64,000 bases of DNA from Armatimonadota bacterium (lineage in GTDB: Bacteria; Armatimonadota; Fimbriimonadia; Fimbriimonadales; Fimbriimonadaceae). Under the pieces are notes generated by a model. The model saw only the letters and a list, made by a program, of their open reading frames with translations. It made no database searches and was not told the origin of the DNA. The stretch is taken from contig JBAXHT010000001.1 in NCBI GenBank assembly GCA_037138755.1, forward strand, positions 1,645,805-1,709,804. The letters are read 5' to 3'. The stretch's first letter is position 1; each line of letters opens with the position of its first letter. This document shows, one piece after another, positions 3,709-31,572 of the stretch. The translations under genes were made by a program, and so were the position numbers.

Positions 3709-4911
3709 ATGTTAAAGCCGACAGCGATTCTTGTTCTTATCTCTTCTGTTTCGATCTGTTTCGCTCAGGATGACCTTTCCAAGCAGCGGCAAGCGCTCGA
3801 GAAGCAATTGCTGGACTACACTTTAGCCTCGAATAGCACGGAAGCAACCTTTGCCGACGAGATTGCAGAACTCAAAAGGCAGATTGAAGCTCTCAACAAG
3901 AAGCTGAACGCACCAAACCTTGAGCAAACGAACCATGGGTGGTTTAGTGGCTTCCTACATACGCAGTTCACGAGTATCCAGAGCAACGGCAATACGACTG
4001 CAGACTTCAGAAATCGGCGAACTCGTCTGATTTACAACCACATTGGCGATAGCCGTACGCTGGGGCGCTTTAGCGTCGAGTTCAATACGGGCGTTAACCA
4101 AACATCAGCCCAAGTCCGCGACGCATTTATCCAATACAAACCGGCGACCTATCTTGCAAAGAGTGGGCCTAGCTACACAATCGGTCAGCAGAATACGCCA
4201 CTCGGTTACGAGATCTCTTACGCAAGCTTTGCGCGAACTTGGCCCGAGCGAGCTTTATACAATCAGACCTATCACGCTGGTGAGCGAGGGCGAGGCGTGC
4301 TGTACCAAAACGGAGATAGCAGCAACTACTGGTTCGCGGGCCTCTGGTCATCATTAACCGTTAACGACATCGAAGCGGTCACGAACACCCGGGGACCTGC
4401 GGGCGAAACCGGTCCTGTCGCCGGGGTACACGTCAAGGCGGGAGCATGGGAAGGTGGGCTCTCCGCCATCAGCACCAGAAGACCACGGTTTGTAAGCGGG
4501 GCAACCGATCTTGCGACGGATGATCGCAAGTTCTCCTACTTCGATCTGCGCTACCATCCGACGAAGTCGAAGTTCGACCTACGCTCCGAGGTGATGCGAG
4601 GAAAGGATCGGATCCCCGGACAGAACTACCTAGCCACCGAAACCGGCGGCTACCACGTCTCGATTGATTACAAGCTGAACAAGATCGACACATTCGTGCT
4701 GCGCCACGAAGAATGGGATGCCGATACATCGCTGAGCGGTGGACTGACGACACTGAACGGAATCGCCTACATCCGAGACGTGAGCCAATTCCTGCGGCTC
4801 AGCGTTGCTTGGCAATGGAATACTCAACTTGGACAAGCAACGGGGACTCCAGCGAACGCTCCGATCAATAGCATCCAACAGCTTACGCTGCGTGCCCAGT
4901 TTAAGTTTTGA
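3709..4911 (+). CDS. Outer-membrane porin, phosphate-selective porin O/P-like
   Basis: This is a 400-residue exported protein. The signal peptide (MLKPTAILVLISSVSICFAQ) is followed by a short coiled coil (about residues 25-65: KQRQALEKQLLDY... EIAELKRQIEALNKKL), then by alternating strands rich in aromatic and polar residues that end in Phe (RAQFKF), as expected for a beta-barrel. The pattern resembles OprP/OprO-type porins, which often have an N-terminal coiled coil. It lies 90 bases after the sugar ABC operon and may admit that sugar across the outer membrane, which is inference. TAACAC lies 7 nt before the ATG and might act as a weak -10. Confidence 0.75.
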   Translation: MLKPTAILVLISSVSICFAQDDLSKQRQALEKQLLDYTLASNSTEATFADEIAELKRQIEALNKKLNAPNLEQTNHGWFSGFLHTQFTSIQSNGNTTADFRNRRTRLIYNHIGDSRTLGRFSVEFNTGVNQTSAQVRDAFIQYKPATYLAKSGPSYTIGQQNTPLGYEISYASFARTWPERALYNQTYHAGERGRGVLYQNGDSSNYWFAGLWSSLTVNDIEAVTNTRGPAGETGPVAGVHVKAGAWEGGLSAISTRRPRFVSGATDLATDDRKFSYFDLRYHPTKSKFDLRSEVMRGKDRIPGQNYLATETGGYHVSIDYKLNKIDTFVLRHEEWDADTSLSGGLTTLNGIAYIRDVSQFLRLSVAWQWNTQLGQATGTPANAPINSIQQLTLRAQFKF

Positions 4912-20474: not shown

Positions 20475-21584
20475 ATGAACTCCCCAAACGGCGTCCGCTA
20501 CGAACTTCTCGGAACCTGCCCTCATACCAAGGCGCGGCGCGGACGGCTCCACACGCCCCACGGAATCGTCGAAACCCCCTTTTTCATGCCCGTCGGAACC
20601 CAGGGCACGGTGAAGACCGTCGGTAGCGAAGACATCGAAGGTCTTGGCTTCCAGCAGATTCTCTCCAATACCTACCATCTCTCGTTGCGACCCGGCTCCG
20701 ATTTGGTCGAACGTTTTGGCGGACTCCATAAGTTCATGTCTTGGAAGGGCGCTATCCTGACGGATAGTGGCGGCTACCAAGTAATGTCCCTCAGTGACAC
20801 CAATGAGGTCACCGACGAAGGCGTCACCTTCAAATCCCATCTCGACGGCTCAAAGCACTTCTTGACCCCCGAGCGATCTATCCAAATTCAGGCCCAATTA
20901 GGTGTCGATATCAGCATGATGCTCGACCAGTGCCCGCCCTATCCATGCTCGCGCGATGAAGCCCACCTGGCGATGAAGCGCACCCACGAGTGGGCTCACC
21001 GCAACCTCGCCGCCCGGGCCGAAGGGCAAGCGATCTTTGGAATCGTTCAGGGCGGAGTCCACTTTGATATGCGCTCAGAGAGCGCCGCTTACATCTCCGA
21101 TCTGCCTTTCGATGGTGTCGCCATCGGCGGAGTCTGTGTTGGCGAGCCGACAGAGATGCAGTATCCGGTAGTCAAACACACCGCGCCGCTTCTACCGGCC
21201 GACAAAGCTCGCTACCTGATGGGCGTCGGTCACCCTAAAGATATTCTTCACGCCGTGGCGTGCGGGGTCGATATGTTTGACTGCGTTCTCCCAACACGCA
21301 TGGCGCGCCACCACTGCCTATACACACTTAATGGCCGAATCAACGCGATGAACAAACAGTGGGCCGAATTCGACGGTTTGCACGACGAAGGCTCCTCGTT
21401 CGCGGCTACCAACCGCTACTCGGCGGCCTATCTGCGTCACCTGTTCAAAGCCAACGAGCCGCTCGGAGCGCGGATCGCTACTCTTCATAACCTCGCCTTC
21501 TATGCTCGCCTCATGCATGAGATTCGCGAAGCGATCTCGGGTGGGACTTGGCCGGAGTTGGTGGCGCGGTACGCGAAGGCGTAG
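20475..21584 (+). CDS. tgt: tRNA-guanine transglycosylase lacking three of four zinc ligands
   Basis: This is a 369-residue TIM-barrel enzyme that exchanges G34 for preQ1 in GUN-anticodon tRNAs. Diagnostic motifs are FFMPVGTQGTVK, LSNTYHL, the active-site Asp in TDSGGYQVMSL, FGIVQGG, and the second catalytic Asp in DMFDCVLPTR. The zinc site is normally CxCxxC plus a His 26 residues later. Here the aligned residues are S307, F309 and T312, with only H338 kept, while the neighbouring RYSAAYLRHLF and TLHNLAFY blocks are conserved. The frame is intact, so the loss appears to be evolved. Specificity as Q-type TGT is inferred. Confidence 0.93.
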   Translation: MNSPNGVRYELLGTCPHTKARRGRLHTPHGIVETPFFMPVGTQGTVKTVGSEDIEGLGFQQILSNTYHLSLRPGSDLVERFGGLHKFMSWKGAILTDSGGYQVMSLSDTNEVTDEGVTFKSHLDGSKHFLTPERSIQIQAQLGVDISMMLDQCPPYPCSRDEAHLAMKRTHEWAHRNLAARAEGQAIFGIVQGGVHFDMRSESAAYISDLPFDGVAIGGVCVGEPTEMQYPVVKHTAPLLPADKARYLMGVGHPKDILHAVACGVDMFDCVLPTRMARHHCLYTLNGRINAMNKQWAEFDGLHDEGSSFAATNRYSAAYLRHLFKANEPLGARIATLHNLAFYARLMHEIREAISGGTWPELVARYAKA

Positions 21585-22203: not shown

Positions 22204-22235
22204 AAAACAAGAGCGCGAAGCTAACCTCCGCGCTC
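22204..22235 (-). terminator. Rho-independent terminator of the rsr operon
   Basis: On the minus strand GAGCGCG and CGCGCTC form a perfect 7-bp stem around an 11-nt loop (22235-22211), followed by TTGTTTT (22210-22204). It lies 13 bases after the rsr stop. Confidence 0.8.
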
Positions 22236-22247
22236 TCATTTTTGCAA

Positions 22248-23834
22248 TCACCCAACGAACTCAGCCACTACCCCCGGAACCGAGGCGTCGAAGCCGACGA
22301 CGTTGAGTACTCCAGCGTCCGTTGAGTCGCCGATCGACAACCGGTTGGTTGCCATTGCGACCACGACAAGCTTTGCCGGGATTCCCATCTTTCGACGGTA
22401 CTCGGCAATCGCTTGAGCCGGGTGCTGCGAACCGTACCAAGTCTCCGAGTCCGTGTAGATCACGAAGACGTCGGCCTCGATACGATTCTGGATTGCGAAC
22501 CGGATCGGAGCGGCACAGTCTGTTCCACCTCCTCCAGTCTTCTCCAAGGTCTCAACGACCTTATCGACCCGCATCGACTTGTTCAACTTCAACGGATAAA
22601 CCTTGGTGTCGAATGCCAAGTGGGTCACTTGATCTTCAACCGACTCGGTCACGAGTGCCATCGCTCCACACGCCTTTCGGCAGTCGAGCCCAGCTACTCC
22701 GCTCACCAGAGTTCCCGCCATCGAACCCGACACGTCGAGTCCAAGGACGTACCGCTTTCCGGTCGACCGAACGTTTTGGAACGTCGCGTAGAACGCATCG
22801 TTCAAAGCGTCGACAATCGACTGGACCGGCTTCCAAGTGTTGTCACCCCGGATACCCCGTCCACCTGAGTAGGTGTTGAGGGCGGCAAGGATCGCAACCG
22901 GGTGGATGCGCGCCTTTCGGAGCTTCTCGGCATCTCGAAGAGTCGAAACGACCTTCTCAACCGCTGCCGAGTCACCTCGGAACAACCCGCTCTTCAACAG
23001 TCCAACCTTGGTCATCGTCGCCAAGTTTCGGATCATCGCAGTGAGCGGCATATCCTCCAAAAGTGCTTCCCAGACTTCAGTCTCGGTCAACATTTCGGTC
23101 GGAACTGCCTCTCGCGGAATCCGGTTTTCAACGATCAAAGCCTTCGCCTTGTCGAGGTCCTTGACCTCCTTCAAAGCCTGGACGGCCTGGATCAGCGGAG
23201 CCTCGCCGGTCAGTTCGCCATCGACAACCCACTTGAACAGAACATTGTGGGTCTCGGTAGCGGCGACCGGGTGAGCGAGCCGAAGCAAGTCACGGTTCGA
23301 CCACCCCTCACGAGCCTGGTACTTCACCAGTCCGTACGCCAAAGCTTCCGGAGTCTGCGCGTTGTACCACTTACCGACCGCTTTTCGGAGTCCTCGACCC
23401 CATCCCCGCATTCCGTCGCAAGCGGCGGCAAACGCAAAGAGGTGAGTTCCGGTTCGGCAAACCTTCGGCAACGCAGCAAGTGCCGCGCTTCGGGTCTTGT
23501 CACATCCGAACGAAGAGGCAAGGGCAAGGGCGAAGATCGCCGAATCGTTCTTCGGCGCCAACCCCTTCGTGCTGACCTCGACGATCCTATCGACAACCTT
23601 GAGTCCGTCTTCCTTCACTGCCTCGATGACGTTGAGAGCGTTTTCCTGGGTGAGCTTCCTCGCCCCAGTGTAATACGTTCCGTTTTCGCTACCAAGGATC
23701 AAGAAGCGATCCAGCATCGTCCACCGATCCACTTCAAAGCTATAGCCTCCCGCATGGTTCAGGATCTGGCTTGAGCCGGGAATGGCTTGCTTCTGATTGG
23801 TCTTTTTGGTGTTGAATAGTTTGCTGTAGTTCAT
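22248..23834 (-). CDS. rsr: Ro60/TROVE domain protein (bacterial Rsr), Y-RNA-binding ring protein
   Basis: This is a 528-residue orthologue of the vertebrate Ro60 autoantigen. The N-terminal two thirds is a TROVE domain of paired helices (QILNHAGGYSFEVDRWTMLDRFLILGSENGTYYTGARKLT is the classical start). The C-terminal third is a von Willebrand A fold with a MIDAS site (GLDVSGSMAG, then TGGGGTDCAAP and YTDSETW). Ro60 rings bind Y RNAs on their outer surface and misfolded RNA through the central hole. In bacteria they gate exonucleases such as PNPase. A strong AAGGAGG precedes the ATG. Upstream on the same strand is a six-unit Y-RNA-like array with a shared promoter. A pnp gene is also encoded 5 kb away. 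Confidence 0.95.
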   Translation of the reverse strand: MNYSKLFNTKKTNQKQAIPGSSQILNHAGGYSFEVDRWTMLDRFLILGSENGTYYTGARKLTQENALNVIEAVKEDGLKVVDRIVEVSTKGLAPKNDSAIFALALASSFGCDKTRSAALAALPKVCRTGTHLFAFAAACDGMRGWGRGLRKAVGKWYNAQTPEALAYGLVKYQAREGWSNRDLLRLAHPVAATETHNVLFKWVVDGELTGEAPLIQAVQALKEVKDLDKAKALIVENRIPREAVPTEMLTETEVWEALLEDMPLTAMIRNLATMTKVGLLKSGLFRGDSAAVEKVVSTLRDAEKLRKARIHPVAILAALNTYSGGRGIRGDNTWKPVQSIVDALNDAFYATFQNVRSTGKRYVLGLDVSGSMAGTLVSGVAGLDCRKACGAMALVTESVEDQVTHLAFDTKVYPLKLNKSMRVDKVVETLEKTGGGGTDCAAPIRFAIQNRIEADVFVIYTDSETWYGSQHPAQAIAEYRRKMGIPAKLVVVAMATNRLSIGDSTDAGVLNVVGFDASVPGVVAEFVG

Positions 23835-23868: not shown

Positions 23869-23970
23869 CTCTCGGCCGGGCAAGTTTCGGAGCGGATGTT
23901 TCCCTGATGGCGCAGCTAGCGCTGTCCACGACGGTTTCCCTTTTCAGAGTCCTTCCGGCCCGACCGAAAA
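23869..23970 (-). ncRNA. Y-RNA-like unit F (nearest rsr)
   Basis: The ends form a stem of about 13 bp: TTTTCGGTCGGGC (23970-23958) with GCCCGGCCGAGAG (23881-23869), including G-U pairs. The Ro-site signature is present as GGGC-CGG on the 5' strand (Gly-to-A position differs from CGA in the other units) and AACTT-GCCC on the 3' strand. The interior contains GGA/TCC pairing and a CAGC-GCTA-GCTG hairpin. No clear T arm was found. The unit ends 35 bases before the rsr start codon. Confidence 0.75.
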
Positions 23971-23979
23971 TCGTTCTGT

Positions 23980-24078
23980 GTCCGTCATGCAGGCAAGTAA
24001 TGCCTTGGTCTCTGGATTTGAACCAGTGGGCTTGCGCCTTTAACCGATAAACCAATTGCCTCGGCCCGCACGACGAAC
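23980..24078 (-). ncRNA. Y-RNA-like unit E with a T-arm mimic
   Basis: The closing stem is 15 bp: GTTCGTCGTGCGGGC (24078-24064) pairs with GCCTGCATGACGGAC (23994-23980). The Ro-site signature is GGGC-CGA on the 5' strand and TACTT-GCC on the 3' strand. Inside, TTGGTTT pairs with AGACCAA. This encloses a GGC-GCAA-GCC hairpin and a T-arm-like hairpin CTGG-TTCAAAT-CCAG (24026-24012), whose loop matches the tRNA T-loop consensus TTCRANY. Confidence 0.85.
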
Positions 24079-24086
24079 CTTGTTGA

Positions 24087-24226
24087 CTCCGGGCAAGTGC
24101 GAACCTGGGTTCGACTGCCATGCCGCGTTCCACACGCCTCAACTCTGAGAGAGTTGGCCGGCCTTTATGCCGAAGCACCCCGATAGCAGCCGAAGTGGTG
24201 GGTAACCCAACCTCATCGGCCCGGAG
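24087..24226 (-). ncRNA. Y-RNA-like unit D
   Basis: The closing stem is a perfect 8 bp: CTCCGGGC (24226-24219) with GCCCGGAG (24094-24087). The Ro-site signature is GGGC-CGA and CACTT-GCCC. An upper stem TTGGGTT/AACCCAG follows. The large interior includes a 7-bp hairpin CAACTCT-CTC-AGAGTTG. It looks structured, but I could not thread a full tRNA fold through it. Confidence 0.8.
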
Positions 24227-24245
24227 AAGATGTTGATTTCAAAGC

Positions 24246-24400
24246 TTAAGAGCGCAGACAAGGTGTCCAAGTAGACAAGATGCTCTACCCAACTGAGCTA
24301 CGCAGCTTCCACGGTTACCCGCTTCGGCTACGGACGGACTCGAACCGCCGACCCTCCGCGTGACAGGCGATAATCTACAAGAATCGGCCCGCACTCTTAA
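24246..24400 (-). ncRNA. Y-RNA-like unit C with a circularly permuted tRNA-like domain (YrlA-like)
   Basis: The closing stem is 14 bp: TTAAGAGTGCGGGC (24400-24387) with GTCTGCGCTCTTAA (24259-24246). The Ro-site signature is GGGC-CGA and ACCTT-GTC. The upper stem is GTAGA/TCTAC. The distal domain reads in permuted tRNA order. First comes an anticodon-arm-like hairpin CGC-CTGTCAC-GCG (24369-24357, GTC in the anticodon position). Then a T arm GGCGG-TTCGAGT-CCGTC (24349-24333), and an acceptor 3' strand CGTAGC closed by a CGG-GTAA-CCG cap. Then the acceptor 5' strand GCTGCG (6 bp) and a textbook D arm TA-GCTC-AGTTGGGTA-GAGC (24300-24282). The acceptor end is closed, so it cannot be an aminoacylated tRNA. 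Confidence 0.9.
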
Positions 24401-24410
24401 TGCGTATGAA

Positions 24411-24478
24411 GCACGGACTAGTGAGTTAGTCTGCCGCTGATCTACCCAAAAGATAAGGCAGCACCATTCGGCCCGTGC
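24411..24478 (-). ncRNA. Y-RNA-like unit B (short)
   Basis: The closing stem is 8 bp: GCACGGGC (24478-24471) with GTCCGTGC (24418-24411). The Ro-site signature is GGGC-CGA and CACTA-GTC. The upper part has CTGCC/GGCAG and an inner ATCT-TTTGGGT-AGAT hairpin. At 68 nt it is one of two minimal units with little room for a tRNA-like domain. Confidence 0.8.
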
Positions 24479-24491
24479 AAAATGTAGTTGC

Positions 24492-24524
24492 GACAATCTA
24501 TCCGTTCTGGAGGACGGAATTGTC
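24492..24524 (-). ncRNA. Linker hairpin between units A and B
   Basis: GACAAT (24524-24519) pairs with ATTGTC (24497-24492), and TCCGT (24518-24514) pairs with ACGGA (24505-24501), with an 8-nt loop and a 3-nt TAG bulge. It lacks the GGGC-CGA signature, so it is probably a processing or spacer element. Confidence 0.55.
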
Positions 24525-24537
24525 AGATGAAAGCGAG

Positions 24538-24605
24538 TCGCGGACAAAAACTTAACCTGAGTAGTTTCACTTAACAGGCGAGAACTCAAGCCAATCGGCC
24601 CGCGA
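24538..24605 (-). ncRNA. Y-RNA-like unit A (short, promoter-proximal)
   Basis: The closing stem is 8 bp: TCGCGGGC (24605-24598) with GTCCGCGA (24545-24538). The Ro-site signature is GGGC-CGA and TTTTT-GTCC. Above it TTGAGT can pair with ACTCAG, enclosing a hairpin TCGC-CTGTTAA-GTGA that resembles an anticodon arm. Length 68 nt. Confidence 0.8.
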
Positions 24606-24729
24606 AATTGAGTCTGGGAGAGTGAGCAATGCGGCTCTTCTCACTACGTCGAACAGTGTCTATGTTTCTGTGCTCCGGTCAGACCGGAGTCCGACGTTAG
24701 CACCCTTGTGTGGGGTGATCCATTTACAG
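24606..24729 (-). ncRNA. Structured leader of the Y-RNA array
   Basis: The stretch between the promoter and unit A has no ORF but is densely paired: CTCCGGT-CTG-ACCGGAG, CGTCGGAC/GTTCGACG and AGTGAG/CTCACT. A T-arm-like hairpin CACTG-TTCGACG-TAGTG (24658-24642) has a 7-nt loop. It lacks a clear GGGC-CGA strand, so it may be a degenerate seventh unit or a processing leader. Confidence 0.5.
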
Positions 24730-24735
24730 TTAGAG

Positions 24736-24765
24736 ATTAAACCGGAGGAGTAAAGAGAAAGTCAA
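24736..24765 (-). promoter_or_regulatory. Sigma-70-type promoter of the Y-RNA array/rsr operon
   Basis: On the minus strand TTGACT (24765-24760) and TTTAAT (24741-24736) are separated by 18 nt. The predicted start is near 24730. This is a good -35/-10 pair, and no terminator is evident between it and rsr. Confidence 0.75.
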
Positions 24766-29244: not shown

Positions 29245-31572
29245 CTACTGTCGCTTTCGGAACTTTGGCTCGTCGCCGCCGTTCGAAGCTGGTCGCTCGG
29301 CTCGGTCTGGTCGAGGTCCGTCTCGGCGAGGGCCTCGGTCTCCACCTCGATCTCGGCCACCGAATCCGCCGCCGCGTCCACCTCGGTCGCCACCGCGACC
29401 TCGGTCTCCGCCTGGGCGTCCACCGCCGCCACCTTGTGATGGAGGAGGGGTTCCGTTTTCGTTACCTTCGAGAGTCGGAAGATCTTGCTTCACACCAATT
29501 GCGGTGAGATTGAGTCGTCCTTGATCATCCAGCTCGTGAGTCTTTACATTGAGCGTATCGCCCATGTTGACGACGTCTTCGATTCGGTTGATCTCCTTGA
29601 GGGTGATCTGTTCCTTCGGAACGAATCCCTGCTTGCCGCTGGCAAGCTCAACCAGAACGCCTCGACCCATGATTCGGGTCACAACGCCGGTTGTCTCAAC
29701 ACCCATTTCAATGTCGCCAACTGCGTCCTTCACCATCTGCATCGCCTTGTTGGAGGCTTCTGCGCCGGTGGAGCCGATGAGGACTCGACCGTCTTGCTGA
29801 ACGTCAACGGTTGCACCAGACTCAGCACAGATCTTCTTGATGGTTGCGCCACCAGGTCCGATCAGCGCGCCGATCTTTTCTGGGTTGATTTGCATCGTGA
29901 CGACCTGAGGAGCGGTGTCCGCAACTCGGGTTCGAGGTGCGTCGATCTCTGCTTCCATGATGTCAAGAATCTGGAGTCGTGCGGTAAGAGCCTGATTGAG
30001 GGCCCGTGCAAGAACTTCGTCAGGAATTCCGTCGAGCTTGGTGTCAAGCTGAAGCGCGGTGATTCCAGCGCGAGTTCCCGCGACCTTGAAGTCCATGTCT
30101 CCGCAGAAGTCTTCCATTCCGATGATGTCGGTAAGGACCTTAAAGGCCTTTCCGTCGCTCATCAGACCCATTGCGATACCCGCGACCGGAGCCTTGATCT
30201 GGATTCCGGCATCCATGAGAGCCAGGGTTGAGCCGCAGACCGAAGCCATGGAGGTGGAACCGTTGGACTCAAGAACCTCGGAAGTGAGGAGCATAGTGTA
30301 TGGGAACTGAGGATCGCTGAGTGGGAGAACTGGGAGCAGTGCTCGCTCGGCAAGCGCGCCGTGGCCAACTTCTCGTCGTCCCCGGCCTCGGTTCGGGCGG
30401 ACTTCCCCGACCGAGTAGGAAGGGAAGTTGTAGAAGTGCATGTATCGCTTGGCGTCGACTTCTTCGAGTCCGTCCATCGTCTGGGCGTCTCCCGGAAGGC
30501 CGAGGGTAGCGATGGTCATGACCTGGGTCTGACCGCGAGTGAATAGTCCTGAACCGTGAACGCGAGGAAGAATTCCTGCGGTCGCTTCGATGTTTCGAAG
30601 CTCATCGAGCTTTCGTCCGTCAGGTCGCTTGTCCTTGGTGATGATGAGGTCGCGAACGACACCCTTCACAACCGTATCTGCCGCTTCTGGAAGCTGGTTG
30701 AGAATCGCTGGCTGGTCGGCATACTCAGGCTTCATCTTCTCAACGATGTCCTTGATCAGGTCGTTGAGAGCTGACTCTCGAACAGCTTTGTCAGCCGATC
30801 CGAGAAGAGCCTTCTCGATGTCTTTGCCAAACTTCTTGCTGATCGCCTTCTTCAGGTCCTCGTCAATGGTGAAGAGCGTAACTTCGCGAACCTTTGTGCC
30901 AACCGTCTTTTTGAACTCTTCAAACTTAAGCGCAATCTCTCGGATTGCGTTGTGAGCAAACTTAAGAGCAGCGGCCATGTCGGCTTCGCTGACTTCATTT
31001 GCACCCGATTCGACCATCGAGATGGCATCCTTGTGTCCGGCAACGATGAGGTCGAGGTCAGAAACCTTGATCTGGTCGTTGGTTGGGAAGAGGATTAATT
31101 CGCCATCGATTCGTCCGACGCGGACGCAGGCGATTGGAGCCTTGAACGGAATGTTCGAGACCGCAAGAGCTGCACCAGCGGCGCAAACTGCGAGAACGTC
31201 GGGCGGGCAATCCTGCTCAACCGCAAATGGCATCGCCATGACTTGAATGTCATTTCGAAGACCCTTCGGGAAGAGTGGTCGGATCGGCCGGTCCATCAGT
31301 CGCGAGACGAGGATCGCCTTTTCAGAAGGTCGTCCGCCGGACTTGATGAAGCCGCCGGGGATCTTGCCGACCGCGTACTTGCGCTCTTCGTAGTCGCAAG
31401 TGAGAGGCAGGAAGTCGATCCCCGCCTTAGGGTTTTCGGACATCGTTGCGACGCCCAGGACGATGGTTTCGCCCATTCCAAGGAGAACTGCGCCGCCGGC
31501 TTGCTTAGCCACGCGACCTGTTTCGAGGTAGAACTCCTTTCCGCCTACCTCGAATTCGAGTGTGTGTATCAT
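29245..31572 (-). CDS. pnp: Polynucleotide phosphorylase
   Basis: This is a 775-residue 3'-5' phosphorolytic exoribonuclease. It has two RNase PH domains (first: MIHTLEFEVGGKEFYLETGRVAKQ...; second: GRGRREVGHGALAERAL with the active-site Arg/Asp residues and GISMGL-like GIAMGLM), a KH domain (INPEKIGALIGPGGATIKKI) and an S1 domain (TGVVTRIMGRGVLVELASGKQGFVP). A 70-residue Gly/Arg/Asp-rich tail follows, longer than usual. In Deinococcus, PNPase is tethered to Rsr by Y RNA, so pnp and a multi-Y-RNA rsr locus in one 10-kb region is notable. GGAG precedes the start. It is transcribed with rpsO. Confidence 0.97.
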   Translation of the reverse strand: MIHTLEFEVGGKEFYLETGRVAKQAGGAVLLGMGETIVLGVATMSENPKAGIDFLPLTCDYEERKYAVGKIPGGFIKSGGRPSEKAILVSRLMDRPIRPLFPKGLRNDIQVMAMPFAVEQDCPPDVLAVCAAGAALAVSNIPFKAPIACVRVGRIDGELILFPTNDQIKVSDLDLIVAGHKDAISMVESGANEVSEADMAAALKFAHNAIREIALKFEEFKKTVGTKVREVTLFTIDEDLKKAISKKFGKDIEKALLGSADKAVRESALNDLIKDIVEKMKPEYADQPAILNQLPEAADTVVKGVVRDLIITKDKRPDGRKLDELRNIEATAGILPRVHGSGLFTRGQTQVMTIATLGLPGDAQTMDGLEEVDAKRYMHFYNFPSYSVGEVRPNRGRGRREVGHGALAERALLPVLPLSDPQFPYTMLLTSEVLESNGSTSMASVCGSTLALMDAGIQIKAPVAGIAMGLMSDGKAFKVLTDIIGMEDFCGDMDFKVAGTRAGITALQLDTKLDGIPDEVLARALNQALTARLQILDIMEAEIDAPRTRVADTAPQVVTMQINPEKIGALIGPGGATIKKICAESGATVDVQQDGRVLIGSTGAEASNKAMQMVKDAVGDIEMGVETTGVVTRIMGRGVLVELASGKQGFVPKEQITLKEINRIEDVVNMGDTLNVKTHELDDQGRLNLTAIGVKQDLPTLEGNENGTPPPSQGGGGGRPGGDRGRGGDRGGRGGGFGGRDRGGDRGPRRDGPRPDRAERPASNGGDEPKFRKRQ

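Follow-up and report, generated by a model that had tools for sequence, protein, structure and literature searches.

A probable Ro60 ribonucleoprotein operon in Fimbriimonadaceae with six different Y RNA-like units ahead of rsr

Bacterial Rsr binds the lower stem of a Y RNA; the RNA acts as a gate for Rsr and links the protein with PNPase (PMC4726728, PMC8394870). The tRNA-like domain of the Y RNA YrlA has been described with D, T and acceptor arms only (PMC8394870). In Salmonella, more than one Y RNA gene shares the operon rsr-yrlBA-rtcBA with the Ro60 gene (PMC7790460), and the bacterial cases retrieved in a limited literature search have one or two Y RNAs per Ro60. In metazoan Y RNAs and nematode sbRNAs (RF01656), the basal stem contains a bulged C, which corresponds to that of the Ro60 site (PMC4726728).

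Here, we analyzed a stretch of 64,000 nucleotides from an Armatimonadota bacterium of the family Fimbriimonadaceae (GCA_037138755.1, contig JBAXHT010000001.1, positions 1,645,805 to 1,709,804), referred to as the window. Named relatives agree with this placement. In our judgment, the region of interest is very probably a Ro60 RNP operon, in which rsr is preceded by a leader of approximately 0.9 kb coding for six Y RNA-like adaptors that differ from each other (Table 1). While the Salmonella operon contains two Y RNAs, the window contains six, which are placed before rsr; the Salmonella-type RtcB neighborhood is absent at the locus and RtcB is encoded on another contig. An orthologous Rsr, Y RNA-like adaptors and a PNPase in the genome are shared with RYPER of Deinococcus radiodurans. 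Unlike RYPER, however, the putative complex would have many adaptors with distinct heads. The basal stem with a bulged C is common to the units and to metazoan Y RNAs and sbRNAs, but the latter are single eukaryotic genes without a tRNA-like domain, and the shared stem does not imply homology. A match of RF01656 above its cut-off to a short Chloroflexota unit (L044; 39.8 vs. 38 bits) fits the shared shape of the Ro60 site.

Table 1. Features of the rsr locus (positions in the window; L032, sister species).
Feature	Position	Strand	Basis or remark
pnp, PNPase	29503..31548	-	TIGR03591 863.6 bits, Pfam domains; approx. 5 kb upstream of array
Promoter-like sequence TTGACT-18-TTTAAT	24736..24765	-	Read in sequence; kept at same place in L032
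Structured leader element, promoter to unit 1	24620..24714	-	Stem ACGTCG../..CGACGT around G+C-rich hairpin, then second hairpin
Unit 1, short Y RNA-like, class S	24538..24605	-	End stem, Ro motif; fold z -4.2
Unit 2, short Y RNA-like, class S	24411..24478	-	Fold z -3.4; Ro site degenerate (CTAG for CTTG)
Unit 3, YrlA-like, class A	24246..24400	-	Rfam RF02553 match and 15-sequence covariation
Unit 3, anticodon-like arm	24370-24356	-	
Unit 3, T arm	24349-24333	-	
Unit 3, acceptor-like stem	24332-24301	-	
Unit 3, D arm	24298-24282	-	
Unit 4, class C, Ro-type stem and conserved branched domain	24087..24226	-	10-sequence alignment
Unit 5, class D, Ro-type stem and T-arm module	23980..24078	-	Fold z -5.1; 11-sequence alignment
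Unit 6, class E, Ro-type stem GGGC-C-GG / ACTTG-CCC	23869..23970	-	CGG-permitting scan; also in L032
rsr, Ro60 orthologue, 528 aa	22248..23834	-	TROVE PF05731, vWA_Ro60 PF25045, PDB 2nvo
Terminator-like stem GAGCGCG/CGCGCTC, 11-nt loop, T-rich tail	22211..22235	-	Read directly 3' of rsr

A first-pass annotation, made from the sequence alone, had taken the gene downstream of the array for Ro60 (rsr). This identification holds: the product combines the TROVE domain with the Ro60-type vWA domain, and its best match in PDB is D. radiodurans Rsr (E-value of 9e-105, residues 21-526). The gene pnp is found near the array only in the genomes G000, G001 and G002, a linkage which just two relatives share with the window and which is missing in most others. 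On the other side, tgt (queuine tRNA-ribosyltransferase, 20475-21584, plus strand) converges with rsr. The tgt enzyme recognizes U33-G34-U35, and CUGU loops are present in units 1 and 3. Since tgt beside rsr was seen again only in the sister species among the testable loci, this neighborhood carries no argument.

All six consecutive minus-strand units reported earlier are present at exactly the positions given, and the array ends 34 nt upstream of the ATG of rsr at 23834 on the same strand (previously given as 35 nt). The unit ends pair over 8, 8, 14, 8, 15 and 13 bp in units 1 to 6, agreeing with the range of 8-15 bp claimed before. As described, the 5' strand reads GGGC-C-GA in units 1 to 5 and GGGC-C-GG in unit 6, and every stem stops at the bulged C in front of this GA or GG. 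The 3' strands are TTTTTG-TC, CACTAG-TC and ACCTTG-TC in units 1 to 3 and CACTTG-CC, TACTTG-CC and AACTTG-CC in units 4 to 6; the (A/C)CTTG motif of the first-pass annotation was recognized in units 3 to 6, with altered versions in units 1 and 2. A basal stem with a bulge and the pattern of the Ro60 site was found in six of six units, the 3' motif being degenerate in the first two. Because of these altered 3' motifs, units 1 and 2 may bind Rsr with weaker affinity than intact Ro sites, as far as the sequence suggests.

The number of units is far above chance expectation. The 1,036-nt leader was first scanned blindly with a pattern that cannot score unit 6 owing to its CGG; four units were returned with strict and five with loose settings, compared to 0.10 and 0.69 per dinucleotide shuffle, respectively (300 shuffles of the leader; never more than two units with strict settings). 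In a second scan permitting CGG, all six units were recovered versus 0.10 expected. When folding energies were compared to shuffles, five of the six units reached z-scores from -3.2 to -5.1, and unit 3 was unremarkable (z -1.6).

Regarding the ends of the operon, the promoter-like sequence proposed upstream of the array is present and recurs in relatives, although it received no score in a strict sigma-70 scan. TTGACA-type sequences also precede the arrays of L033, L050, L034, L076 and L081. The structured element between the promoter-like site and unit 1 is recognizable in seven genomes; its inner hairpin differs between the window and the sister species with the pairing retained, and RNAalifold gave a stem of nine pairs, two of which show two-sided changes. 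Behind rsr, the terminator-like stem was not scored under the rule of the scanning tool, as its loop is too long. Since a single promoter-like site and rsr enclose all units, the minus strand shows no terminator-like site between them, and a conserved structured leader comes first, the region might also be a long regulatory 5' UTR, in which Rsr autoregulates its own synthesis via the stems and the units stay unreleased. This single autoregulatory leader is the main rival of the operon with separate adaptors. Nevertheless, we consider it improbable, given that each class is conserved on its own while the inner domains differ strongly between classes, that unit 3 is similar to YrlA, a family of separate RNAs, and that an array of binding sites needs neither tRNA-like nor class C domains.

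The covariance searches proposed in the first-pass annotation were performed with Rfam models and with new models built for class A (R1) and class C (R2), which recover array units. No Rfam model reached its gathering threshold anywhere in the window, YrlA (RF02553) surfacing below threshold: it matches unit 3 from end to end with 38.8 bits (E-value of 1e-6 in a 1.2-kb search), the gathering score being 69. Units in most of the relatives tested also match RF02553, and the scores of YrlA-like RNAs next to annotated Ro genes of phages, at 33-52 bits, are likewise under 69. For this reason, we call unit 3 YrlA-like and not a formal member of RF02553. A basal Rsr-type stem, the permuted order of T arm, acceptor-like stem and D arm inside this stem, and the position beside rsr are common to YrlA and unit 3. 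In contrast to the RF02553 consensus, which has no anticodon-arm hairpin, unit 3 carries an extra hairpin, located after the second stem and before the T arm, and its tRNA-like domain is therefore not limited to D, T and acceptor arms.

Class A RNAs consist of this hairpin, a variable loop-like GGUC, the T arm (GGUUCRANUCC), the acceptor-like stem, a UA resembling U8-A9, and a D arm of the form GCUCAG..GGUAGAGC. Read from the sequence, this layout is that of a circularly permuted tRNA. Circularly permuted tRNA genes have the same linear order (anticodon-like arm, V, T, acceptor, D), but class A differs by ends that continue into a Ro-type stem, and ARAGORN does not report a tRNA at this place. 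An alignment of 15 class A sequences supports six helices with 98.4% of the cells paired and two-sided changes in 21 of 38 pairs, which was equaled in none of 500 shuffles, and the pairing falls to 32-43% if partners are slid. The four-armed fold of unit 3 rests on this covariation, since folding of the single sequence does not recover the four arms (-51.5 vs. -58.8 kcal/mol for the lowest-energy structure).

R1 also aligns to junctions of adjacent tRNA genes in the family, where the 3' half of one tRNA precedes the 5' half of the next; this serves as an independent control of the permuted layout. Partial matches (model positions 27-105) had been considered as free-standing permuted tRNAs, but all seven that were checked are ordinary tandem tRNA junctions (six Asp-Phe, one Ile-Ala). 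The agreement between class A and such junctions suggests, at the level of sequence layout, how YrlA may have originated. It could also be taken to mean that the units are simply a decayed tRNA gene array in front of rsr, and the T- or D-arm sequences of units 3 and 5, the partial R1 matches to tRNA-Asp/tRNA-Phe junctions and the position of rsr just after tRNA arrays in several Chloroflexota point in the same direction. However, ARAGORN called no tRNA in the window, units 1, 2, 4 and 6 have no T arm, and, unlike in decaying genes, selection maintains the pairing of the Ro-type stems and tRNA-like arms, which leaves this explanation with almost no probability.

Some tRNA-related observations were made at other loci. 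In the Chloroflexota loci L039, L040, L041, L054, L058 and L063, rsr is located shortly downstream of 10-24 tRNA genes on the same strand; these arrays are a possible source of tRNA-like Y RNAs. A Y-type unit before one of these rsr genes (L041:3704-3837) has a seemingly unpermuted tRNA-like domain, reported by ARAGORN as tRNA-??? with a 4-base anticodon. An R1 match in the tRNA array of L063 (1706-1922) was dropped as a Y RNA, being a degenerate tRNA-Asn-like gene. In Labedaea rhizosphaerae (L056), an ARAGORN tRNA-Asp (3749-3832) overlies a YrlA-like RNA (3764-3891) directly before rsr. Further, a tRNA-Leu(gag) annotated in Gordonia phage Mareelih (OP820470.1; L150:4161-4249) overlaps a YrlA-like RNA (RF02553 52.1 bits at 4201-4300; R1 66.5 bits) and is probably a misannotation.

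The tRNA-like parts of units 3 and 5 and the anticodon-like hairpins of units 1 to 3 were not mentioned in the first-pass annotation. In class A, the first hairpin has a covarying 4-bp stem (96.7% paired, two-sided changes in three of four pairs) and a 7-nt loop CU-NNN-R-(A/C), in which the equivalents of C32 and U33 are invariant and A37 is nearly so. The triplet changes between species (GUC, GUU, AUC, AUA, UCU, UUA, GUA, GAU, CAU, AAG and AUG). The short units of the window contain corresponding hairpins on the minus strand, namely UCGC-CUGUUAA-GUGA in unit 1 (24581-24567) and AUCU-UUUGGGU-AGAU in unit 2 (24454-24440). Anchored to a UUAYC-like motif, the hairpin was counted in 16 of 18 class A units and in 9 of 17 short units, with 0.42 and 0.17 expected from shuffles; these counts overstate the evidence, as the sequences are related, yet there is broad variation in both stems and triplets. 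The hairpin is absent from all 13 T-arm units in which no D arm follows. The anticodon arm is not specific to this clade, since six of seven phage YrlA-like RNAs beside annotated Ro genes, one Nonomuraea RNA and one Chloroflexota RNA pass the same test, a count which is too low because the anchor failed on L150, L138 and L139. Similar hairpins are seen in YrlA-like RNAs of Gordonia, Microbacterium and Mycobacterium phages and of Nonomuraea. The loop CUGUUAA, that of tRNA-Asn(GUU), recurs at distant loci (unit 1 of the window, unit 3 of L032, L054, L138, L139 and the Microbacterium phage L151). Triplets of the A34 type, UUA and UCA are not anticodons of normal tRNAs; therefore, a decoding function of the anticodon-like arms is unlikely.

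With U33 and purine 37 fixed and the triplet varying between species, the array might display parts of tRNAs on Ro60, namely full mimics, anticodon arms on their own and T-arm modules, which would serve as decoys for, or sensors of, proteins that attack or read tRNAs, such as anticodon nucleases. We put this forward tentatively, as a rather unlikely function.

The inner domains of units 4 and 5 differ from that of unit 3. The branched domain of class C reads CTTCGGC..AAAGGCCGGCC..GAGGCGTGTGGAACGC in unit 4; in the alignment of ten sequences, 96.3% of the cells are paired and two-sided changes occur in 21 of 42 pairs. No Rfam match to class C beyond chance level was obtained, RF01656 scoring unit 4 weakly (18.4 bits). 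Unit 5, recovered by R1 at 45 bits, contains the T arm GGTTCAAATCC, preceded by TTATCGGTTA; class D has UUAUCGGUUA upstream of the T arm and no separate D arm.

Orthologous arrays were found before rsr when the upstream region was compared across relatives, as the first-pass annotation had recommended. The sister species (L032, 93% Rsr identity) retains all six units; the DNA of the aligned leaders is 82% identical over the full length, and the stems are rebuilt yet still paired, most clearly in unit 6. The earlier claim of compensating pairs, i.e., conservation of structure over sequence, can now be put in numbers by two-sided changes between orthologues, the stems of classes A, C and S covarying. 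Both the paired ends and the GGGC-CGA/CTT-G signatures are conserved at orthologous loci. Thus, the reading as a Y RNA-like array beside Ro60 withstood the comparison and is supported by a bona fide rsr, the shared Ro pattern, covarying stems, the YrlA match and orthologous arrays.

In total, 92 units were found in the distinct rsr leaders scanned, compared to averages of 0.00-0.35 for each leader after shuffling. Once the 5' motif is relaxed, four to eight units, arranged as S-(S)-A-C-D-(E)-rsr, are found in the closest relatives and zero to seven in more distant family members; in many genomes of the family, rsr was not detected. R1 matched 29 of 291 Armatimonadota genomes at an E-value of at most 1e-9. 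Within the family, its strong matches are at rsr loci, save one array in G070 and one case on a separate contig (G072), and strong R2 matches are confined to rsr arrays. The G070 array (G070:C5:515346-515496, L135) comprises a class A match of 80.8 bits and more units and is far from both TROVE genes. On a contig titled Candidatus Nitrosotalea, an archaeon (L045), three Y-type units precede an rsr whose product is 49% identical to that of the window; the archaeal label may be a binning or contamination issue.

The presence of three to four class A copies in L033, L075 and L080 could suggest that the array is a recent tandem duplication of one Y RNA with little functional meaning. We regard this as highly improbable for the window, where the classes all differ, orthologues hold the same place elsewhere (S-A-C-D) and class C occurs once per genome where R2 is strong. 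Rather, the four to eight units in the conserved order S-A-C-D-rsr indicate old, differentiated classes and not recent duplicates.

Under the Ro60 RNP operon which we favor, the upstream promoter would drive the units and rsr as one transcript; Rsr would bind the stems of the units, and the units would be trimmed into separate RNAs. The tRNA-like units could then gate the Rsr ring and tether Rsr to PNPase and to other tRNA-recognizing proteins. In this way, a single Rsr might be fitted with several adaptors, the labor being divided among the units by their putative effector heads: an anticodon arm-like hairpin alone in class S, a four-armed permuted tRNA mimic in class A, an array-specific branched domain in class C, a T-arm module in class D and an unclassified domain in class E.

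Both the location of Y RNAs next to rsr and the tRNA mimicry of YrlA are already known. New, as far as could be checked, are the size of the arrays and their division into classes, class C, short units with an anticodon arm and the arm as measured here in YrlA-like RNAs, although our literature search was limited and primary papers on YrlA may already describe this arm. With the anticodon-arm hairpins, the mimicry of tRNA known for Y RNAs is extended, and PNPase, tRNA-modifying enzymes and anticodon nucleases become candidate partners. Four to eight conserved adaptors with distinct heads before one rsr represent a natural experiment on why Ro60 needs Y RNAs and on what the heads of these RNAs bind.
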